Origin: Bacteroidetes bacterium HGW-Bacteroidetes-4
Lineage (GTDB): Bacteria; Bacteroidota; Bacteroidia; Bacteroidales; SZUA-534
DNA: 64,000 nucleotides
Direction: 5' to 3'
Assembly (NCBI GenBank): GCA_002840905.1
Contig: PHDD01000003.1
Location: forward strand, 12,376-76,375
Shown piece by piece: positions 7,701-16,507 of the stretch. Below the pieces are notes generated by a model. It did no database searches and was not told where the DNA came from. It saw only the letters and a list, made by a program, of their open reading frames with translations. Positions within the stretch are counted from its first letter, which is position 1. Every line of letters starts with the position of its first letter. The translations under genes and the position numbers were made by a program.

Positions 7701-7888
7701 ACTTCAACAGGTTTTTATAAAAATAGAATTTTTTTTTGGTTTCAGTCTAAAGGTTTTAAGCTTTGTTTACTTTTTATTAAAAGCTTTTCAAAAACCCGCT
7801 ATTAAACATATTACTTCTCTAAACATTATCATTGTTTAATAAATTAAATTCTACTTAATTCGTGTAATCATATTTAATTGTTGGTGTG

Positions 7889-8440
7889 ATGCACAGAATG
7901 GGCGAACGTATAAAAAAACGGAGAGAAAGCTTAACTATTTCGAGTGGTGAGCTGGCCAATAATATTGGAGTAACACCCAGCTTAATCTCGCAAATTGAGC
8001 GGGCCAAAGCGTTTCCTTCCATACTTACACTTAAAAAACTGGCCGATGCGCTGAGTACAACGGTAGGCGAACTCATTGGTGAAAATGGGAATCTGATTGA
8101 ACATCCGCTGTTAAAGCTGGAAGAACGGAAGTTTGTTAAAAAGAATAAAACAGGTACCAAATCGTATTTACTTTCGCATCACGACCCACAAAAACAGATG
8201 GATCCTTTTCTGCTTCATTTTGAGAAGAAAGGGGACTCCGGCGAAATTATGACACCCCAAAACCCCCGGCAGGAATTTTTATTTGTACTTAAAGGAAAAT
8301 TCCGGGTAAGCTTATCACAACAAACTTATGAGCTAAGCGAAGGCGACAGCTTTTATTTTATTTCCAATCAGGCGCACTTGTTTACCAATACAAACAACGG
8401 AACCTCGGAATTAATTTGGGTTGTAAGTCAAAGCAGCTAA
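7889..8440 (+). CDS. XRE-cupin transcriptional regulator
   Basis: About 183 residues: an N-terminal XRE helix-turn-helix (about 6-62, including ANNIGVTPSLISQIERAKAFPS) and a C-terminal cupin sensor domain (about 110-180, with FVLKGKFRVSLS and LSEGDSFYFIS). Such two-domain regulators usually control adjacent amino-acid or small-acid metabolism, with the cupin binding the effector. Start choice is uncertain: GTG at 7886, ATG at 7889 and ATG at 7898 are all in frame. It lies 45 bases upstream of the aminomutase gene in the same orientation, making it the likely dedicated regulator of the following catabolic cluster (inference). Confidence 0.88.
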   Translation: MHRMGERIKKRRESLTISSGELANNIGVTPSLISQIERAKAFPSILTLKKLADALSTTVGELIGENGNLIEHPLLKLEERKFVKKNKTGTKSYLLSHHDPQKQMDPFLLHFEKKGDSGEIMTPQNPRQEFLFVLKGKFRVSLSQQTYELSEGDSFYFISNQAHLFTNTNNGTSELIWVVSQSS

Positions 8441-8485: not shown

Positions 8486-10060
8486 ATGGGAACAATAAAA
8501 AAAGTCATCGAAATCAAAGCAAACGACGTGCAATTAATGATGGAACGGCACCAATATCCCGCCGATATAAAATCAAACATTGTAATTGAAAACCTGCTTC
8601 CAACCGGATTGCTGGCACGCCTTCATAACGCGTATCCCCAGCACTCGGGCATTATGGAAACCGAACCCTTTATTTTTACTGAAAAGCACCATTACGGTGG
8701 TTTAGCCGGGTTTCGCGAGATAAACCAGATTCTTTTAAATAACGGAATAAACATGGGCTATATTGAGGAACGTGAACTCTTTATTAAGGTTTATCGCTTT
8801 TTAGCTACCAAACATGTATTGAATTCCATTAACTGGAAGAATTTTGAAAAGGATTCCCTGTTTCAGTTGGTTTTTCCCCAACCAGGAATGATTGCTCCCG
8901 AAACAACCAAAGCCTATTTGGCAGCAAAAACCGATGAGGAAAGGGAAAAAGTGGTTAGAGCGCACATGGATAAAACCAATCCCCACGACGGAAAACAAAA
9001 GCTTAATAAGCCTTTTTATATTAACGAAGATGGCGGCATGGAAGTGGTTGAGGGGAGCCAGCACAAATATCCCCAATGCGAATTAATTTTCGATCAATCC
9101 ACCCAAAGTTGTTTTGCCTTTTGTACGTATTGCTTCCGTCATGCCCAAGTTCGCGGCGACGAAGATATGTTTATCCAGCGCGAAATTGATCAGGTACACG
9201 GTTATTTGCGTCGACATAAAGAAGTAAGCGATGTTTTGCTTACCGGAGGCGATGGTGCCTACATGCCTTTCGATCGGCTCGAAAAATACGCGCGTCCGCT
9301 GGTTGAAGATCCGGAATTAACCCATATCAAATCACTGCGTATTGGTTCGCGGGCTTTAAGTTTCCATCCCGAACTGGTATTAACCGACGACTACAACAAA
9401 TACCTCGATTTATACAAATACCTAATCGATAACGGCATTCAGGTAGTTTGGATGGGTCATTTCTCAACCCCACGAGAATTACTGAACACCAGCACCATTG
9501 CAGCCGTTCGGCGCTTGCGTGCTATGGGTGTTACCATTAAAAGCCAAAGTCCGGTAATGAACCATATCAGTTTGTTTACCCACGAAAACGGAAAGGTTGA
9601 CATTGACCGCTCGGCTCAAAACTGGATCGATTTGGGAAATGTTCTGGCCATGTTAACCATCGGGTTCCACAGCATGTACTGTGCCCGCCCAACCGGTGAA
9701 CACCACTATTTTACAGTTCCACTTGCTGAGCTTAATCAGGTATTCAGCAAAGTTTACCGTTCGCTGGCTTCCATCAATCGTCCGTCGCGGTATATAACCA
9801 TGACATCGTCGGCCGGAAAAACCTCGATGCTGGGCGTAGCCGAAATAAACGGCGAAAAAGTATTTGCCCTTAAGTTTAATGAGAGTCGTAATATGGAATG
9901 GATGGATAAGGTGTTTTTAGCCAAATACGATGAGAAGGAAAACACCATTGAAAAACTGAAGCCGTATGCTGCCGACAAACATTTCTATGAAGATGAGTTG
10001 AAAGAAATTGAAAACAATCTGGAAGAAGCCTTTTTGAAAAAAGTAAAAAGCACACATTAA
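8486..10060 (+). CDS. KamA-family radical SAM amino-acid 2,3-aminomutase
   Basis: A 524-residue enzyme of the lysine 2,3-aminomutase family, which uses S-adenosylmethionine, a 4Fe-4S cluster and PLP to move an amino group from C2 to C3. The cluster motif CxxxCxxC is at Cys209-Cys213-Cys216 (CFAFCTYCFRHAQ), followed by LLTGGD (251-256). The PLP lysine is most likely Lys445 in TSSAGKTSM, which matches the glycine-rich PGGGGK loop of lysine aminomutases. The cluster motif sits roughly 85 residues later than in classical enzymes of about 416 residues, so the N-terminal region is extended. The aspartates that bind the lysine side chain in clostridial enzymes appear to be replaced (Ala400-Arg401 and Thr438 at the aligned sites), pointing to a substrate other than lysine. 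It leads a cluster with a CoA-transferase, an aminotransferase and a thiolase. Confidence 0.88.
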   Translation: MGTIKKVIEIKANDVQLMMERHQYPADIKSNIVIENLLPTGLLARLHNAYPQHSGIMETEPFIFTEKHHYGGLAGFREINQILLNNGINMGYIEERELFIKVYRFLATKHVLNSINWKNFEKDSLFQLVFPQPGMIAPETTKAYLAAKTDEEREKVVRAHMDKTNPHDGKQKLNKPFYINEDGGMEVVEGSQHKYPQCELIFDQSTQSCFAFCTYCFRHAQVRGDEDMFIQREIDQVHGYLRRHKEVSDVLLTGGDGAYMPFDRLEKYARPLVEDPELTHIKSLRIGSRALSFHPELVLTDDYNKYLDLYKYLIDNGIQVVWMGHFSTPRELLNTSTIAAVRRLRAMGVTIKSQSPVMNHISLFTHENGKVDIDRSAQNWIDLGNVLAMLTIGFHSMYCARPTGEHHYFTVPLAELNQVFSKVYRSLASINRPSRYITMTSSAGKTSMLGVAEINGEKVFALKFNESRNMEWMDKVFLAKYDEKENTIEKLKPYAADKHFYEDELKEIENNLEEAFLKKVKSTH

Positions 10061-10181: not shown

Positions 10182-10895
10182 ATGATTAACAAAATTATTT
10201 ATTCCACAGCCGAAGCCGTTGCCGATATTTTTGATGGGGCAACCATCATGATAAGCGGTTTTGGCGAAGCCGGCAGCCCAATTGAGTTGATTCATCAACT
10301 CATTGATCACGGAGCAAAAAATTTAACCGTGGTAAGTAACAATACCGGTAGCGGCCTTGTTGGACTGGCTGCATTAATAGAGAACAAGCAGGTAAAAAAA
10401 ATGATTTGTTCTTTTCCACGAACCGCTAATTCAACGGTTTTCCCCGAACTCTACAATAAAGGAGAAATAGAATTGGAACTGGTTCCGCAGGGAACCCTGG
10501 CCGAACGCATTCGTGCCGGTGGTGCCGGAATACCGGCTTTTTATACCCCATCGTCGGTAAATACCCCTTTGGCCGATGGCAAAGAGGTACGCGAATTCAA
10601 CGGTCAATTGTTTGTAATGGAACACGCCATTAAAGCCGATTTTGCTTTGGTTAAATGTCTTACGGCCGACAGGTATGGAAATCTTATTTATAATAAAACG
10701 GCACGAAACTTTGGCCCAATAATGTGTACTGCAGCCCAAACAACCATTGTTCAGGCAAAACATATTGTGGAACCGGGAACAATTGATCCGGAAACCGTGG
10801 TAACACCCGGTATTTTTGTAAACCGCGTAGTGCAGGTAAGCAATCCTGCCGATGAATCGAAACTTGTAGCTGATAACAGGAGGTACCCATGGTAA
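10182..10895 (+). CDS. pcaI: 3-oxoacid CoA-transferase subunit A (PcaI-like)
   Basis: Alpha subunit of a family I CoA-transferase that moves CoA from succinyl-CoA to a 3-oxoacid. I chose the ATG at 10182 (MINKIIYSTAEAV), which matches the usual PcaI start; an upstream TTG at 10137 would add 15 residues. The glycine-rich motif GFGEAGSPIELI, the CSFPRTANSTVF block, VPQGTLAERIRAGGAGIPAF and NKTARNFGPIMCTAA all follow the 3-oxoadipate CoA-transferase pattern. The product is 237 residues, normal for the family. It overlaps the beta-subunit gene by seven bases, implying translational coupling. The resemblance to PcaI suggests 3-oxoadipate or a near relative as substrate, although no aromatic-ring pathway gene is present. 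Confidence 0.88.
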   Translation: MINKIIYSTAEAVADIFDGATIMISGFGEAGSPIELIHQLIDHGAKNLTVVSNNTGSGLVGLAALIENKQVKKMICSFPRTANSTVFPELYNKGEIELELVPQGTLAERIRAGGAGIPAFYTPSSVNTPLADGKEVREFNGQLFVMEHAIKADFALVKCLTADRYGNLIYNKTARNFGPIMCTAAQTTIVQAKHIVEPGTIDPETVVTPGIFVNRVVQVSNPADESKLVADNRRYPW

Positions 10896-11554
10896 CAGAA
10901 AAAAACACAATAGGATGGAGCCGCAACGAAATGGCTCAAAAAGTAGCCGCCGATATACCCGATGGTTCGTATGTTAATCTGGGTATTGGCATTCCCGAAC
11001 TGGTAGCCGACCACGTTCCACCCGGCATCGAAGTTATTTATCATACTGAAAACGGTTTATTGGGAATGGGCCCCGTTCCTGAAAAGGATCTGGCTGATCC
11101 AGAATTAATAAACGCCGGAAAAAAATGCGTTACGGCAATTCCCGGAGCTTGCTATTTTCATCATGCCGATAGCTTTACCATGATACGCGGCGGGCATCTC
11201 GATATTTGTGTATTGGGTGCTTTGCAGGTTTCAAAAGAGGGCGACCTGGCCAACTGGTCAACCGGAGCGCCCGATGCCATCCCCGCCGTGGGAGGAGCCA
11301 TGGATCTGGTTGCCGGTGTTAAAAACATTTGGGTAATTACCGAGCATAACACCAAGGACGGAAAGTTTAAACTGGTGAATCAATGTGCTTTTCCGCTTAC
11401 CGGAAAGCAAGTGGTAACGCGAATCTACACCAACCTGGCCATTATTAATGTAAAAGAAAAAAACTTATACGTTCGCGAAATGGCCCCCGGTGTTACCTTC
11501 GAAGAATTACAGCGATTGACCGAAGCTAAATTGATCAACGAATCCGGAAAGTAA
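10889..11554 (+). CDS. pcaJ: 3-oxoacid CoA-transferase subunit B (PcaJ-like)
   Basis: Beta subunit, 221 residues, carrying the catalytic glutamate that forms the acyl-CoA intermediate (Glu54 in HTENGLLGMGP). Other family blocks are YFHHADSFTMIRGGHLD and GDLANWSTG followed by IPAVGGAMDLVAG. These follow the PcaJ pattern closely. Its start codon lies within the end of subunit A, so the two chains should be made together and assemble as an A2B2-type enzyme. The proposed role is activation of a 3-oxoacid produced by the nearby aminotransferase. Confidence 0.88.
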   Translation: MVTEKNTIGWSRNEMAQKVAADIPDGSYVNLGIGIPELVADHVPPGIEVIYHTENGLLGMGPVPEKDLADPELINAGKKCVTAIPGACYFHHADSFTMIRGGHLDICVLGALQVSKEGDLANWSTGAPDAIPAVGGAMDLVAGVKNIWVITEHNTKDGKFKLVNQCAFPLTGKQVVTRIYTNLAIINVKEKNLYVREMAPGVTFEELQRLTEAKLINESGK

Positions 11555-11650: not shown

Positions 11651-13003
11651 ATGGATACCCAAAATAATACAAACACCAACAAAAGCCGGCAGTTATATGC
11701 TCAGGCTGTAAATGTGTTGCCCGGTGGTGTCAGTCGCAATACCGTGTTTCACAAACCCTACCCACAATATGCAGCCAAAGCAAAAGGCTGTTACGTAACC
11801 GATGTGGATGGCACCGAACGAATCGACTTTGCCAACAACATGGCCTCGCTCATTCATGGGCACGCTTATCAGCCCATTGTTGACGCAGTTACCGAACAGT
11901 TGAACCGGGGAACGGCTTATACCCTGGCTACTGAGGCCGAGGTTCGCTTAGCCGAACATTTGTGTGAGCGTGCTCCAGGATTTGAAAAAATTCGATTCAT
12001 GAATTCCGGAACCGAGGCGGTAATGGCCATGATTAAAGCTGCCCGCGCTTTTACCGGACGACCGAAAATAGCTAAAGCCGAAGGAGCCTACCACGGCACC
12101 TACGATTTTGCCGAAGTGAGTCAAACCGCCAACCCAACCAACTGGGGAGACCTCGATAAACCCAACAGCGTACCCCTGGCTAACGGAACCCCAAGGGGTG
12201 TGTTAAACGATGTGTTGATTTTTCCCTACAACGATATCGAACGGACACTACATATATTAAATACACATGCCGATGATATTGCTTGTGTAATTATCGATCC
12301 GGTACCGCACCGCGTGGGATTATTGCGCGCCACGCCCGAATTTGTTGAGGCGCTGCATCAGTGGACACGAATGAATGGGGCTTTACTGGTTTTTGACGAG
12401 GTGGTTACCTTCCGGACCAACTATAGCGGAGCGCAACACGACTACAAAGTAAAGCCCGATTTAACAGCCCTTGGAAAAATTATCGGAGGAGGTTTTCCGG
12501 TGGGGGCTTTGGCCGGAAGCTCTGAAATAATGAAGGTTCTCGATCCGCGTGAGAGCAAGCTTTTGCTTCCTCATTCAGGAACGTTCTCGGCCAATCCCAT
12601 AACCATGACGTCTGGTAAAGTAGCCATGGAGCACTTCGACCGGGATGCTGTGCTTAAACTCAACGCGCTGACCCAAAAAGCGATTGGACAGATTAAAGAA
12701 GCCATACGGCTGGCCGATGTTCCGGTTTCAATTACCGGAGCAGGTTCCATGTTCCGCATGCATTTTAAAGTAACTCCACCCACTACTTATCGGGAAGCCT
12801 ACCAGAGTAAAGAAGAAGCAGCCCTGATAAACACCTTGCTCGATTACCTGTTTTATCAGGAAAACCTGATTATGATTAATACTTGCGCCTGTATGTTTTC
12901 AACCGCTTTGACTCAGAAGGAAGTTGATCGTCTAAGTCAGGCGCTGTTTAACGGGTTTAAAACCATTAAACCCCAATTGGAATTTTTAAATAAAACCCGT
13001 TAA
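11651..13003 (+). CDS. Class III aminotransferase (glutamate-1-semialdehyde aminomutase-like)
   Basis: A 450-residue PLP enzyme of the class III fold. Visible features are MNSGTEAVMAMIKAARA (phosphate-binding region, about 117-133), FDEVVTFR (Asp249 contacting the pyridine nitrogen) and LGKIIGGGFPVGA (PLP lysine Lys276). It resembles glutamate-1-semialdehyde aminomutase, but no tetrapyrrole genes are nearby. Known beta-amino-acid transaminases belong to the same subfamily. In this cluster, sited between a 2,3-aminomutase/CoA-transferase and a thiolase, it is best read as the enzyme that turns a beta-amino acid into a beta-oxo acid (inference). The thiolase gene starts four bases after its stop codon, indicating tight coupling. 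Confidence 0.85.
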   Translation: MDTQNNTNTNKSRQLYAQAVNVLPGGVSRNTVFHKPYPQYAAKAKGCYVTDVDGTERIDFANNMASLIHGHAYQPIVDAVTEQLNRGTAYTLATEAEVRLAEHLCERAPGFEKIRFMNSGTEAVMAMIKAARAFTGRPKIAKAEGAYHGTYDFAEVSQTANPTNWGDLDKPNSVPLANGTPRGVLNDVLIFPYNDIERTLHILNTHADDIACVIIDPVPHRVGLLRATPEFVEALHQWTRMNGALLVFDEVVTFRTNYSGAQHDYKVKPDLTALGKIIGGGFPVGALAGSSEIMKVLDPRESKLLLPHSGTFSANPITMTSGKVAMEHFDRDAVLKLNALTQKAIGQIKEAIRLADVPVSITGAGSMFRMHFKVTPPTTYREAYQSKEEAALINTLLDYLFYQENLIMINTCACMFSTALTQKEVDRLSQALFNGFKTIKPQLEFLNKTR

Positions 13004-13007
13004 TGCT

Positions 13008-14210
13008 ATGAATGAAGTTTATATTTGTGATGCTGTAAGAACGCCTATTGGCCGCTATGGCGGGGTCCTTTCATCAGTTCGTCCCGACGATTTGGCGGCT
13101 ATTCCCTTAAAAACCTTGATGGAACGCTACCCGCAGATTGACTGGAACGAAGTGGATGATGTGCTATTGGGTTGTGCCAATCAGGCCGGCGAAGATAACC
13201 GCAACGTGGCCCGCATGGCCTTATTGCTGGCGGGCTATCCGGTTACAATTCCCGGAGCCACCATAAACCGGCTTTGCGGTTCAGGAATGGATGCTGTGGG
13301 AACAGCAGCCCGTGCCATTCAGGCAGGTGAAGCCGAGCTTATTATTGCCGGCGGAGTCGAAAGCATGTCGCGTTCGCCTTTTGTTATTGGCAAAGCCGAT
13401 GCTGCCTTTGGGCGTACCCAGCAGATGTATGATACCACCATGGGCTGGCGCTTTATAAACAAAACGCTCGATAAAATGTACGGTACCGAGGGCATGATAC
13501 AAACAGCTGAGAATATTGCAAAAGAATTCAACATAAGCCGCAGCGACCAGGATAAGTTTGCCTTATGGAGTCAGGAAAAGGCAAATACGGCACAACAGAA
13601 CAACGGATTTCAACCCGAATTGATTCCGGTAAGTATTCCGCAACGTAAGGGTGATCCAATAATAGTACGTATTGACGAGCATCCACGGGCAACCACTCTG
13701 GAAAAACTGGCTGCCCTGAAACCGGTTACAGTAGCCGATGGAACGGTTACTGCCGGAAACGCATCGGGAATAAATGATGGAGCCGCAGCTTTAATTATTG
13801 CATCAGCCAAAGCAGTAAATAAATACAATCTGGTTCCAAAAGCCCGAATATTAGGAATGAAAGCGGCCGGAGTTCCTCCGCGCATTATGGGAATGGGCCC
13901 TGTGCCTGCCACACAAAAACTGTTGAAACATTTGGGCCTTTCGCTCAGCGATATCGACTTAATTGAGCTGAACGAAGCTTTTGCGGCTCAGGCCCTGGGT
14001 TGTAGCCGCGAACTGGGTCTGGCCGATAACGATCCGCGTATTAATCCCCTGGGTGGAGCCATAGCTTTGGGTCATCCGCTGGGAATGAGCGGGGCGCGTT
14101 TGCTTACTACGGCAACGCATCAGATGCAGCAAACCACAGCCAAACGGGCACTGTGTACTATGTGTATTGGCGTAGGGCAGGGAATTGCCCTGGTACTTGA
14201 AAAAGTATAA
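13008..14210 (+). CDS. pcaF: Acetyl-CoA acyltransferase, 3-oxoadipyl-CoA thiolase-like
   Basis: A 400-residue thiolase with the complete catalytic set: Cys90 (NRLCGSGMD), His356 (ALGHPLGMSGAR) and Cys386 (CTMCIGVGQG). The N-terminus (ICDAVRTPIGRYGG, then LSSVRPDDLAAIP) and the block GCANQAGEDNRNVARMA are those of PcaF/PaaJ, the 3-oxoadipyl-CoA thiolases, more than of AtoB-type acetoacetyl-CoA thiolases. The reaction would be 3-oxoacyl-CoA plus CoA giving acetyl-CoA and a shortened acyl-CoA (succinyl-CoA if the substrate is 3-oxoadipyl-CoA). It is the last gene of the cluster and is followed by a long imperfect hairpin. Confidence 0.9.
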   Translation: MNEVYICDAVRTPIGRYGGVLSSVRPDDLAAIPLKTLMERYPQIDWNEVDDVLLGCANQAGEDNRNVARMALLLAGYPVTIPGATINRLCGSGMDAVGTAARAIQAGEAELIIAGGVESMSRSPFVIGKADAAFGRTQQMYDTTMGWRFINKTLDKMYGTEGMIQTAENIAKEFNISRSDQDKFALWSQEKANTAQQNNGFQPELIPVSIPQRKGDPIIVRIDEHPRATTLEKLAALKPVTVADGTVTAGNASGINDGAAALIIASAKAVNKYNLVPKARILGMKAAGVPPRIMGMGPVPATQKLLKHLGLSLSDIDLIELNEAFAAQALGCSRELGLADNDPRINPLGGAIALGHPLGMSGARLLTTATHQMQQTTAKRALCTMCIGVGQGIALVLEKV

Positions 14211-14423: not shown

Positions 14424-15644
14424 ATGGCTTTAATTATTGATAAAATACGGGAAGACTTTCCCATCCTTAAAGAAACGATTTATAACAAGCCCCTGGTTTA
14501 TTTAGATAACGCGGCCACCACCCAAAAACCCCAGGTGGTGCTCGATAAGCTGATTGAAGTTTATACAAAATATAACGCCAATATTCACCGGGGGGTGCAT
14601 TATTTAAGCAACAAGGCAACTACCGAAACGGAGAATGCCCGGCTTACGGTGCAAAAATTTATCAATGCCCAACACAGTCATGAAGTTATTTTTGCCCGGG
14701 GAGCTACCGAAGGGATTAACCTGGTGGCCCATTCGTTTGGCGAAAAGTTTATACATGCGGGCGACGAAATTATTGTGTCCGAAATGGAACACCACTCCAA
14801 CCTGGTTCCCTGGCAAATGGTGGCCGAAAAACGGGGAGCCCGGTTGGTGAAATGGGCGTTTAATCAGGCGGGTGAGTTGGAACTGAATGAACTTGAAAAG
14901 CTAATCAGCGACAAAACCCGGATAATTGCCGTAAACCAGGTGAGTAATTCACTGGGAACCATAAATCCCGTAAAGGAAATTACGGCTTTGGCGCATCGGC
15001 ATCAGGTGGCGGTTTTAATCGACGGAGCACAGGCGGTGCAGCATTTAAAGGTGGATGTACAGGAACTCGATTGCGATTTTTATGTGTTTTCAGGTCATAA
15101 AATCTACGGTCCTACAGGTATTGGCGTGGTATATGGAAAAGAAGGCTGGTTAAACCAGATGCCTCCCTACCAGGGCGGTGGCGAGATGATTGAAAGTGTG
15201 AGTTTTGAAAAAACCACCTACAACCAACTGCCCTTTAAATTTGAAGCCGGAACGCCCAATTATGCCGATTCCATTGCTTTGGCTACAGCCATTGACTATT
15301 TGACGGCCTTGGGTTTAGATGACATTGCAACTTACGAAAAGGAATTACTGGACTACGCCGAAGCCAAATTACTTACAATTCCCGGACTCGAAATTGTGGG
15401 AACTGCCAAAAAGAAAACCAGTGTGGTTTCGTTTAACATAAAGGGCCTTCATGCTTATGATGTGGGAACCTTACTCGATAAAATGGGAATTGCGGTGCGC
15501 ACCGGAACGCACTGCACCGAGCCGGTAATGATTCATTACGGAATTTCGGGAACCGTACGGGCCAGTTTTGCGTTTTATAATACCCGGGACGAAATTGACC
15601 GGTTACATCAGGGGCTTTTAAAGGTAATCGAATTGTTTGCCTAA
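14424..15644 (+). CDS. sufS: Cysteine desulfurase SufS
   Basis: PLP-dependent group II cysteine desulfurase of 406 residues that supplies sulfur for iron-sulfur cluster assembly. Visible features are the N-terminal YLDNAATTQKP, the PLP lysine Lys226 in FSGHKIYGPTGIG, and the active-site Cys364 in RTGTHCTEPVM. The ATG at 14424 is chosen over an in-frame TTG 15 bases upstream. sufE follows 99 bases downstream and a SufT-like gene after that, forming a small sulfur-transfer operon. The SufBCD scaffold is not in the window. Assignment is firm. Confidence 0.93.
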   Translation: MALIIDKIREDFPILKETIYNKPLVYLDNAATTQKPQVVLDKLIEVYTKYNANIHRGVHYLSNKATTETENARLTVQKFINAQHSHEVIFARGATEGINLVAHSFGEKFIHAGDEIIVSEMEHHSNLVPWQMVAEKRGARLVKWAFNQAGELELNELEKLISDKTRIIAVNQVSNSLGTINPVKEITALAHRHQVAVLIDGAQAVQHLKVDVQELDCDFYVFSGHKIYGPTGIGVVYGKEGWLNQMPPYQGGGEMIESVSFEKTTYNQLPFKFEAGTPNYADSIALATAIDYLTALGLDDIATYEKELLDYAEAKLLTIPGLEIVGTAKKKTSVVSFNIKGLHAYDVGTLLDKMGIAVRTGTHCTEPVMIHYGISGTVRASFAFYNTRDEIDRLHQGLLKVIELFA

Positions 15645-15743
15645 ACTTAGGAGATAGTCACCCGACGGCTATCTTAATACAAAATACAAACAGTGACAAC
15701 GAACAAGTAGTCGGGTGACTTGTAATTAGAGAAACAGCGCTTT

Positions 15744-16172
15744 ATGAGTGAATTAAATAAAAGACAGGATGCCGTAATTGAAGAATTCAGTGTATTCGAC
15801 GATTGGATGGACAAGTATTCGTACCTGATTGATTTGGGAAAGGAACTACATCCGATATCGGACAAAATAAAAAACGAGCAAACCCTGATTAAGGGTTGTC
15901 AGAGCAAAGTCTGGCTCGACGCTAAAATGGAAGAAGGAAAGGTAATTTTTACTGCCGACAGCGACGCCATTATTACCAAAGGAATTGTGGCTCTGTTGGT
16001 GCGGGTGATGTCGGGCCTGAAACCCGAAGATATTATAAATGGAGAACTGTATTTTATCGACCGGATTGGGCTGCACGAGAACCTCTCGCCAACCCGCTCG
16101 AATGGCTTGGTTGCCATGGTAAAACAAATGAAAATGTTTGCCCTGGCTTATCATACCAAACTGAACAGTTAA
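15744..16172 (+). CDS. sufE: Sulfur acceptor protein SufE
   Basis: A 142-residue SufE-family protein that accepts persulfide sulfur from SufS. The sulfur-carrying cysteine is Cys52 in LIKGCQSKVW, a highly conserved motif. The later block DIINGELYFIDRIGLHENLSPTRSNGL is also typical. It lies between sufS and a SufT-like gene on the same strand, giving a complete sulfur-relay pair. Confidence 0.92.
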   Translation: MSELNKRQDAVIEEFSVFDDWMDKYSYLIDLGKELHPISDKIKNEQTLIKGCQSKVWLDAKMEEGKVIFTADSDAIITKGIVALLVRVMSGLKPEDIINGELYFIDRIGLHENLSPTRSNGLVAMVKQMKMFALAYHTKLNS

Positions 16173-16201
16173 GCAAAAACAGAACTTAAAACAAAACGAC
16201 C

Positions 16202-16507
16202 ATGACACAAGAATTAGAGGATATTTTGGTTGCTGAATTGCAAACCATATACGACCCGGAGATTCCGGTTAATATTTACGATTTGGGTTTAATCTACAAC
16301 CTGAAAGAAGAAGACGGCGTACTCGACGTAGAGATGACCCTGACAGCTCCCGGCTGTCCGGTGGCCGACAGTATTATGGCCGAGGTAAAACAAAAAATGG
16401 AACAGGTGGAGGGTATTAAAGAAGCGCGCATCGATCTGGTGTTCGATCCCCCCTGGACCATGGACATGATGACCGAAGAAGCCAAGCTGGAACTGGGTAT
16501 GCTTTAG
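16202..16507 (+). CDS. SufT-like / MIP18 (DUF59) family iron-sulfur maturation protein
   Basis: A 101-residue single-domain DUF59 protein. It has the N-terminal TIYDPEIPVNIYDLGLIY signature and the conserved cysteine Cys52 in LTAPGCPVADSI, ending with the PPWTMDMMTEEAK block. SufT-type proteins help mature iron-sulfur proteins, and PaaD-like relatives act in phenylacetate oxidation. Its place directly after sufS and sufE favours the iron-sulfur role. The gene starts 29 bases after sufE. Confidence 0.9.
   Translation: MTQELEDILVAELQTIYDPEIPVNIYDLGLIYNLKEEDGVLDVEMTLTAPGCPVADSIMAEVKQKMEQVEGIKEARIDLVFDPPWTMDMMTEEAKLELGML

Follow-up and report, generated by a model that had tools for sequence, protein, structure and literature searches.

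We propose that a gene at 8486..10060 (+) in a stretch of the Bacteroidetes bacterium HGW-Bacteroidetes-4 genome encodes a radical S-adenosylmethionine (SAM), pyridoxal phosphate (PLP)-dependent L-2-aminoadipate 2,3-aminomutase that heads a five-gene route to succinyl-CoA and acetyl-CoA, a reading to which we assign a probability of roughly 0.8. The stretch, referred to as the window, comprises 64,000 nucleotides of contig PHDD01000003.1 (assembly GCA_002840905.1), and positions are counted from its first letter. The frame is open throughout, and its 524-residue product, P0001, was placed among the KamA-like enzymes from the open reading frame, NCBIfam models, PDB matches, alignments and a structural model. 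With only slightly less confidence, we think that this enzyme completes an as yet undescribed lysine degradation route, in which it links a saccharopine (or lysine 6-aminotransferase) branch with the final part of the beta-ketoadipate pathway, and that it does so across many bacterial groups. If true, this adds an enzyme specificity, 2-aminoadipate 2,3-aminomutase with 3-aminoadipate as product, and a carbon-conserving mode of lysine degradation in many bacterial groups, with all six carbons kept as succinyl-CoA and acetyl-CoA. Downstream of 2-aminoadipate, neither oxygen nor a 2-oxoacid dehydrogenase nor a glutaryl-CoA dehydrogenase would be needed.

The operon and its predicted reactions

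The aminomutase gene is followed on the same strand by genes for CoA-transferase subunits A and B, a class-III aminotransferase and a thiolase, separated by 121, -7, 96 and 4 bp in that order. The two subunits belong to the PcaI/ScoA and PcaJ/ScoB families of 3-oxoacid CoA-transferases and are predicted to act on 3-oxoadipate: subunit A (10182..10895, +), whose start was placed at an internal ATG in agreement with its homologues, scores 343.7 bits with TIGR02429 (cut-off 128.5) and has a succinyl-CoA:3-ketoacid CoA-transferase as its best PDB match, and subunit B (10889..11554, +) scores 303.8 bits with TIGR02428 (cut-off 243.55). The thiolase (13008..14210, +) passes the equivalog for 3-oxoadipyl-CoA thiolase (PcaF), TIGR02430, with 680.3 bits (cut-off 597). 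The class-III aminotransferase (11651..13003, +; PF00202) stays under the equivalog for the glutamate-1-semialdehyde aminomutase HemL (TIGR00713, 345.1 against 527.3 bits), and among PDB entries it matches 6k8h, ForI and glutamate-1-semialdehyde aminomutases best. Because the HemL equivalog is missed and a beta-phenylalanine aminotransferase and a beta-transaminase appear only lower among the PDB matches, its predicted role as a 3-aminoadipate aminotransferase comes from gene context.

In the proposed reaction, a [4Fe-4S]-SAM centre would make the 5'-deoxyadenosyl radical while the substrate is carried on PLP (at Lys445), with Arg218 holding its alpha-carboxylate and Arg401 the distal one. The amino group would then shift from C2 to C3, turning L-2-aminoadipate into 3-aminoadipate (beta-homoglutamate). 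The class-III aminotransferase would convert 3-aminoadipate to 3-oxoadipate, the CoA-transferase would activate it to 3-oxoadipyl-CoA and the PcaF thiolase would cleave this to succinyl-CoA and acetyl-CoA. On chemical grounds 2-aminoadipate is the probable substrate, since transamination of its beta-isomer followed by CoA transfer would lead to 3-oxoadipyl-CoA. Lysine could supply 2-aminoadipate through lysine-ketoglutarate reductase, saccharopine dehydrogenase and aminoadipate-semialdehyde dehydrogenase; some genomes may instead use lysine 6-aminotransferase, whose product is aminoadipate semialdehyde, followed by the semialdehyde dehydrogenase. Each reaction, its substrate and direction, and the roles given to Arg218 and Arg401 are what we infer here; the five-enzyme pathway is directly testable, and named strains carry the genes.

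Both ends of this scheme have known counterparts. The last two steps would use the thiolase and CoA-transferase families of the beta-ketoadipate pathway (PcaIJ, PcaF), but an amino acid, rather than an aromatic ring, would be the source of 3-oxoadipate. As in saccharopine lysine degradation, the enzymes leading from lysine to 2-aminoadipate are present or adjacent in many operon-bearing genomes; that pathway is known to continue through 2-oxoadipate to glutaryl-CoA, whereas we propose that the amino group is shifted and the chain cleaved by thiolysis, with no loss of CO2 after 2-aminoadipate. It is also conceivable that the route runs in reverse, building 2-aminoadipate and then lysine from succinyl-CoA and acetyl-CoA. 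As a matter of general knowledge, aminomutases, aminotransferases, CoA-transferases and the saccharopine enzymes are reversible in principle, but thiolytic condensation is unfavourable, as is running the semialdehyde dehydrogenase backwards, and we give the reversed route very little credence. For the degradative route that we favour, a library of open-access papers yielded neither a report of the route nor one of an aminomutase making 3-aminoadipate, which is weak evidence of absence because most subscription papers and preprints lay outside the search. Names for 3-aminoadipate turned up there in a meteorite paper and a review of secondary metabolism.

Family, fold and active site of the aminomutase

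P0001 has the CxxxCxxC motif, the PLP lysine and the fold of lysine 2,3-aminomutase (KAM; KamA/AblA). Its sole PDB sequence match at E<=0.001 is the lysine 2,3-aminomutase 2a5h (E 5e-13). An earlier reading of the window from its letters alone, the sequence-only reading, had called for a structure prediction, and an AlphaFold2 model (from a 38-sequence alignment; mean predicted local distance difference test score, pLDDT, 87.2; predicted template modelling score 0.89) lies nearest to that same entry (VIA-align Z 27.6, root-mean-square deviation 2.9 over 321 residues; next entry Z 11.9). Nevertheless, P0001 scores far under the cut-off of every NCBIfam aminomutase model that it matches: the KamA-family subfamily model TIGR00238 (77.5 against 199.2 bits), the lysine 2,3-aminomutase equivalog TIGR03820 (65.2 against 525.4), an AblA-like model (61.9 against 396.25), the arginine 2,3-aminomutase equivalog TIGR04468 (57 against 600), the equivalog for EpmB, the elongation factor P lysine aminomutase (TIGR03821, 51.3 against 369.3), and that for clostridial glutamate 2,3-aminomutase (EAM; TIGR04368, 50.6 against 650). 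By these scores it is a relative outside the curated TIGR00238 subfamily. No match to Pfam LAM_C was found anywhere in its own genome.

We compared P0001 with three sets of proteins. Its family (alignment A1, n=38) consists of P0001 and 37 of the 80 related loci described below. The KamA-type set holds 24 proteins from the same phylum, Bacteroidota; of the two members scanned against NCBIfam, L126 and L138, the former passes the lysine 2,3-aminomutase equivalog TIGR03820 (769 bits, cut-off 525). The sister set (n=30) combines two plasmid proteins, from Streptomyces (L151) and Mycetohabitans (L152), with 28 loci (L003-L030) that rank below the two close matches in a search of Bacteroidota genomes, further matches of that search having been left out for want of a locus. 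In a midpoint-rooted FastTree tree of these 92 sequences, family, sister group and KamA-type set form separate clades with support of 0.84, 0.93 and 1.0, and the family averages 66% identity internally, 32% to the sister group and 19% to the KamA-type set. That P0001 represents a distinct subfamily, as the sequence-only reading had it, is thus borne out by the model scores, by the low identity to the KamA-type set and by a single clade of 38.

The same reading had remarked that the Cys motif comes about 85 residues later than usual, and this is so: it starts at residue 209 in P0001 and at 125 in the 2a5h chain, 84 residues earlier when counted on the PDB sequence alignment. Such lateness is not peculiar to P0001, since the glutamate 2,3-aminomutase model is matched from profile position 149 (residue 194); the match to the lysine 2,3-aminomutase model starts at profile position 97 (residue 186). 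The N-terminal extension is predicted to be folded, with ten-residue mean pLDDT above 90 over residues 11-100, and it includes invariant residues, for example L37, G72 and G75.

With codon positions counted from 8486, the radical SAM motif C209/C213/C216 (codons 209-216) occupies 9110..9133 (+) and the PLP lysine Lys445, in SSAGK, 9818..9820 (+). These residues, which the sequence-only reading had judged intact, are invariant in 38/38 family sequences, as is R218, which we take to stand at the position of KAM's carboxylate-binding arginine. Asp293 and Asp330 of KAM, the aspartates that bind the side-chain amine of lysine, were aligned through the 24 KamA-type proteins. A profile-profile alignment and a separate MAFFT alignment agree in placing the first on Arg401 (9686..9688, +) and the second on Thr438 (9797..9799, +). 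The earlier placement of the second aspartate on Thr438 therefore holds, but that of the first, on Ala400, was one residue off. Position 401 is Arg in all 38 family members and position 438 is Thr in 29 and Ser in 9, whereas in the MAFFT alignment the KamA-type proteins have Asp (17) or Gln (7) in the first column and Asp (24) in the second. Arg432 and Arg435 are likewise invariant in the family and the sister subfamily and absent from the KamA-type set.

P0001 thus shares with lysine 2,3-aminomutase the radical SAM motif, the PLP lysine and the overall fold, and differs from it in having Arg401 and Thr438 for the two aspartates, in its later Cys motif and in sharing a mean identity of only about 19% with the KamA-type proteins. 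An ordinary lysine 2,3-aminomutase in an operon for beta-lysine degradation would suit the KamA-like fold of the model and the name 'lysine 2,3-aminomutase' that the sister-group plasmid homologues carry. However, both aspartate positions are lost, the first to an arginine, and 65.2 bits falls far below the 525.4 of the lysine model. We consider this the most improbable of the alternatives. An acidic amino acid as substrate, which the sequence-only reading had proposed, agrees with the invariant Arg401 in place of Asp and with operon neighbours that suggest an acidic amino acid of six carbons. The narrowing to L-2-aminoadipate follows from the operon genes, which that reading did not use.

The most serious competitor for 2-aminoadipate is glutamate. 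P0001 might be a glutamate 2,3-aminomutase, with the operon degrading beta-glutamate via 3-oxoglutarate, or with beta-glutamate serving as an osmolyte. The sister subfamily, at about 32% mean identity, has the same arginine as P0001, with Arg at 401, 432 and 435, Thr403 and Gly404 each conserved in 30/30, and its likely substrate is glutamate; since it keeps Arg401, the residues alone would fit glutamate too and cannot separate the two substrates. Assigning the substrate from residues alone was accordingly discarded as insufficient. The sister subfamily differs from P0001 in that its matches in the Bacteroidota-genome search begin at P0001 residue 55-109, leaving most of the N-terminal extension unaligned, and in that tblastn of the short loci L003-L030 turned up none of the operon genes. 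It occurs in Bacteroidota genomes and on the two plasmids. The Mycetohabitans protein (L152, 5905-7284) lies in a nonribosomal peptide synthetase/polyketide synthase cluster, and the Streptomyces protein (L151, 5947-7278) in a polyketide cluster, where its neighbours are a PLP-dependent aminotransferase, an AMP-binding protein and a hydrolase of the proline iminopeptidase family. The L151 neighbourhood resembles the incednine starter-unit cassette, which speaks for glutamate. One report gives the incednine enzyme IdnL4 a likely role as a glutamate 2,3-aminomutase making beta-glutamate, which gene disruption supports, in vitro activity not having been seen (PMC11284099). IdnL4 may belong to the sister subfamily, by analogy and as a lead only. 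The sister subfamily is probably an acidic-substrate aminomutase and its substrate may be glutamate. Both plasmid proteins are annotated 'lysine 2,3-aminomutase' in public records, a naming of relatives that, if our proposal is true, would mislead models of lysine metabolism.

Clostridial EAM offers a further comparison. An acidic substrate is expected for both enzymes, and EAM also lacks the two aspartates, having Lys332 and Asn369. P0001 differs in scoring 50.6 of 650 bits with the EAM model, in its Arg where EAM would have Lys and in the position of its gene beside one for a PcaF thiolase; no protein over the EAM cut-off was found in 296 Bacteroidota genomes. Besides this low score, glutamate is disfavoured by a thiolase of the 3-oxoadipyl-CoA type in 11/11 operons scanned (the window and ten others) and by genes leading from lysine to 2-aminoadipate in the flanks of 8/80 loci. 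A glutamate enzyme is, in our judgement, unlikely.

Operon conservation and the supply of 2-aminoadipate

The L-2-aminoadipate reading draws on the company that the gene keeps. What was observed directly comprises the genes present and their order, the families to which they belong, the conserved residues, and the co-location and co-occurrence of genes. A scan of GTDB species contigs gave 161 relatives, of which the best 80, at 60-76% identity, are the related loci; many come from metagenome-assembled genomes, in which labels and binning may be wrong. Operon genes were counted from tblastn matches, open-reading-frame clustering having missed some of them (for example, the L106 aminomutase). 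All five genes are present in 66/80 loci, and in 66/66 of these they stand in the same order on one strand. By gene, CoA-transferase A is found in 79 loci, B in 76, the aminotransferase in 74 and the thiolase in 66. Twelve of the 14 loci short of five genes end at a contig edge, and L106 has a dehydrogenase gene in the thiolase's place before its contig ends. The thiolases of other loci pass the PcaF equivalog in 10/10 cases scanned. Locus labels include Bacteroidales and other Bacteroidota, Cloacimonadota, Ignavibacteriae, Balneolales, Krumholzibacteriia, Sumerlaeaceae, Shewanella, Pseudoalteromonas, Photobacterium, Motiliproteus and others, and among named strains the genes are carried, for example, by Maribellus sediminis, Ancylomarina salipaludis, Shewanella corallii and Pseudoalteromonas denitrificans.

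Membership in the PcaI, PcaJ and PcaF families could also mean that the CoA-transferase and thiolase act in aromatic breakdown by the beta-ketoadipate pathway, with the aminomutase a bystander. The five-gene order held in all 66 complete loci argues against this. So does the distribution of the intradiol ring-cleavage dioxygenase domain PF00775 among 41 operon-bearing genomes (the window's own and those of the 40 odd-numbered loci of the 80): it is found in one of them, the own genome being without a match, although phenylacetate-pathway genes were not searched for. Intradiol aromatic breakdown thus does not explain the PcaF-type genes, and we regard the bystander scenario as hardly probable.

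A lysine-derived 2-aminoadipate, as we propose, is suggested by the flanks of the 80 loci, surveyed for up to 8 kb on each side. Genes making 2-aminoadipate from lysine occur at eight loci: saccharopine dehydrogenase at seven (L037, L039, L057, L060, L061, L065, L072), lysine-ketoglutarate reductase at two (L037, L039) and L-piperidine-6-carboxylate (aminoadipate-semialdehyde) dehydrogenase at five (L057, L060, L065, L072, L106). The L061 saccharopine dehydrogenase has PF16653 and PF03435, the L037 reductase has mitochondrial alpha-aminoadipic semialdehyde synthase (AASS) as its best PDB match (E 4e-78), and the semialdehyde dehydrogenases of L057, L065, L072 and L106 pass NF050084 (801.9, 800.4, 804 and 760 bits, cut-off 730). 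For the L039 pair NCBIfam gave no match at E<=1e-30, and both genes were assigned by identity to the proteins of other loci. At least three unlike arrangements are seen, in Cloacimonadota (L037, L039), in a Maribellus-like group and in a Ramlibacter metagenome-assembled genome (L106). In Maribellus sediminis (L072) the five operon genes are followed by semialdehyde dehydrogenase and saccharopine dehydrogenase genes, all on one strand.

The window's own genome encodes the enzymes for 2-aminoadipate as well as the 3-oxoadipyl-CoA thiolase. Its saccharopine dehydrogenase has 446 residues and PF16653 (PDB 1e5l, E 3e-85), its semialdehyde dehydrogenase scores 788.5 bits (cut-off 730), and its 406-residue ketoglutarate reductase is 32% identical to the L037 protein, with AASS as best PDB match (E 2e-41) and no alanine dehydrogenase at E<=1e-5. 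Lysine 6-aminotransferase over cut-off occurs in only three of the 41 operon-bearing genomes (G317, G328, G333), all without the reductase, and the G317 gene is some 2.4 kb away from that for the semialdehyde dehydrogenase. Across genomes, the reductase (E<=1e-50) is found in 28/41 operon-bearing genomes and in 69/295 Bacteroidota (the 296 sampled less the own genome; Fisher p 2e-8), and saccharopine dehydrogenase (E<=1e-60) in 26/41 and 66/295 (p 2e-7), p values that are a guide only because the comparison sample is not taxonomically matched and still holds the operon-bearing genome G070.

This unmatched sample and the arginine shared with the sister subfamily weigh against our proposal, and so do several further observations. 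The CoA-transferase models do not tell 3-oxoadipate from other 3-oxoacids such as acetoacetate, and L090 is without a thiolase despite remaining contig. Close family members are uncommon within the phylum itself: 34/296 Bacteroidota genomes were matched, and only the own genome and G070 exceed 70% identity, the remaining matches lying at 33-42%. The three lysine genes of the own genome are unlinked to the operon, on other contigs. Semialdehyde dehydrogenase is over cut-off in just 19/41 operon-bearing genomes. The genome of the closest homologue (L031, in G296) has the reductase, but no match to saccharopine dehydrogenase there is better than E 5e-18, and G297 and G304 are without a recognised source of 2-aminoadipate. 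The same is true of gammaproteobacteria, where all eight genomes among the 41 have neither the reductase at E<=1e-50 nor lysine 6-aminotransferase over cut-off. Of 15 genomes searched, 2 carry the LodA_C domain of lysine oxidases; neither lysine 6-aminotransferase nor LodA_C explains the lysine source in gammaproteobacteria. In G327 and G330, two of the eight, weakly matching reductase-like and saccharopine-dehydrogenase-like genes lie side by side.

Short adjacent genes of this kind were seen in marine gammaproteobacteria at L158 (5224-7485; saccharopine-dehydrogenase-like and reductase-like, 383 and 366 residues), and a similar pair lies at G327:C8:58472-60348. It is possible that they are a divergent saccharopine pair.

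Regulators, neighbouring genes and other KamA-like proteins

An XRE-cupin transcriptional regulator gene (7886..8440, +; HTH_3 and Cupin_2 by Pfam) ends 45 bp upstream of the aminomutase gene and probably encodes the regulator of the operon. Similar genes occur at 14/80 loci, mostly a short way upstream, and at 12/80 a divergent upstream LysR gene takes this place (L078, L081, L084, L086, L093, L097, L099, L101, L103, L107, L109, L110), Shewanella, Pseudoalteromonas and Photobacterium among them. A promoter and terminator scan gave 10 promoter-like sites against 10.4 in shuffles, and these sites were left out of the argument.

Beside the operon, 14424-16507 holds a class-V aminotransferase gene (PF00266; SufS-type by eye), followed by small frames that look SufE-like and DUF59-like by eye. 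As tblastn found no counterparts of these genes in the 80 related loci, we take the Fe-S-type genes as incidental.

Other KamA-like proteins were met along the way. The own genome has a second KamA-like domain at G000:C14:282012-283088 (-), within an open frame of 731 residues, and frames of 698-765 residues with a KamA-like match occur in five other Bacteroidota genomes (G031, G116, G124, G230, G238). L138 is one of the seven KamA-type proteins that have Gln where the first aspartate aligns; it passes no aminomutase equivalog, its best being the arginine model with 466 of 600 bits. It also shares the motif CRYCLRKR with L140, L141, L143, L147, L148 and L149, and these seven motif-bearing proteins possibly represent a further specificity.

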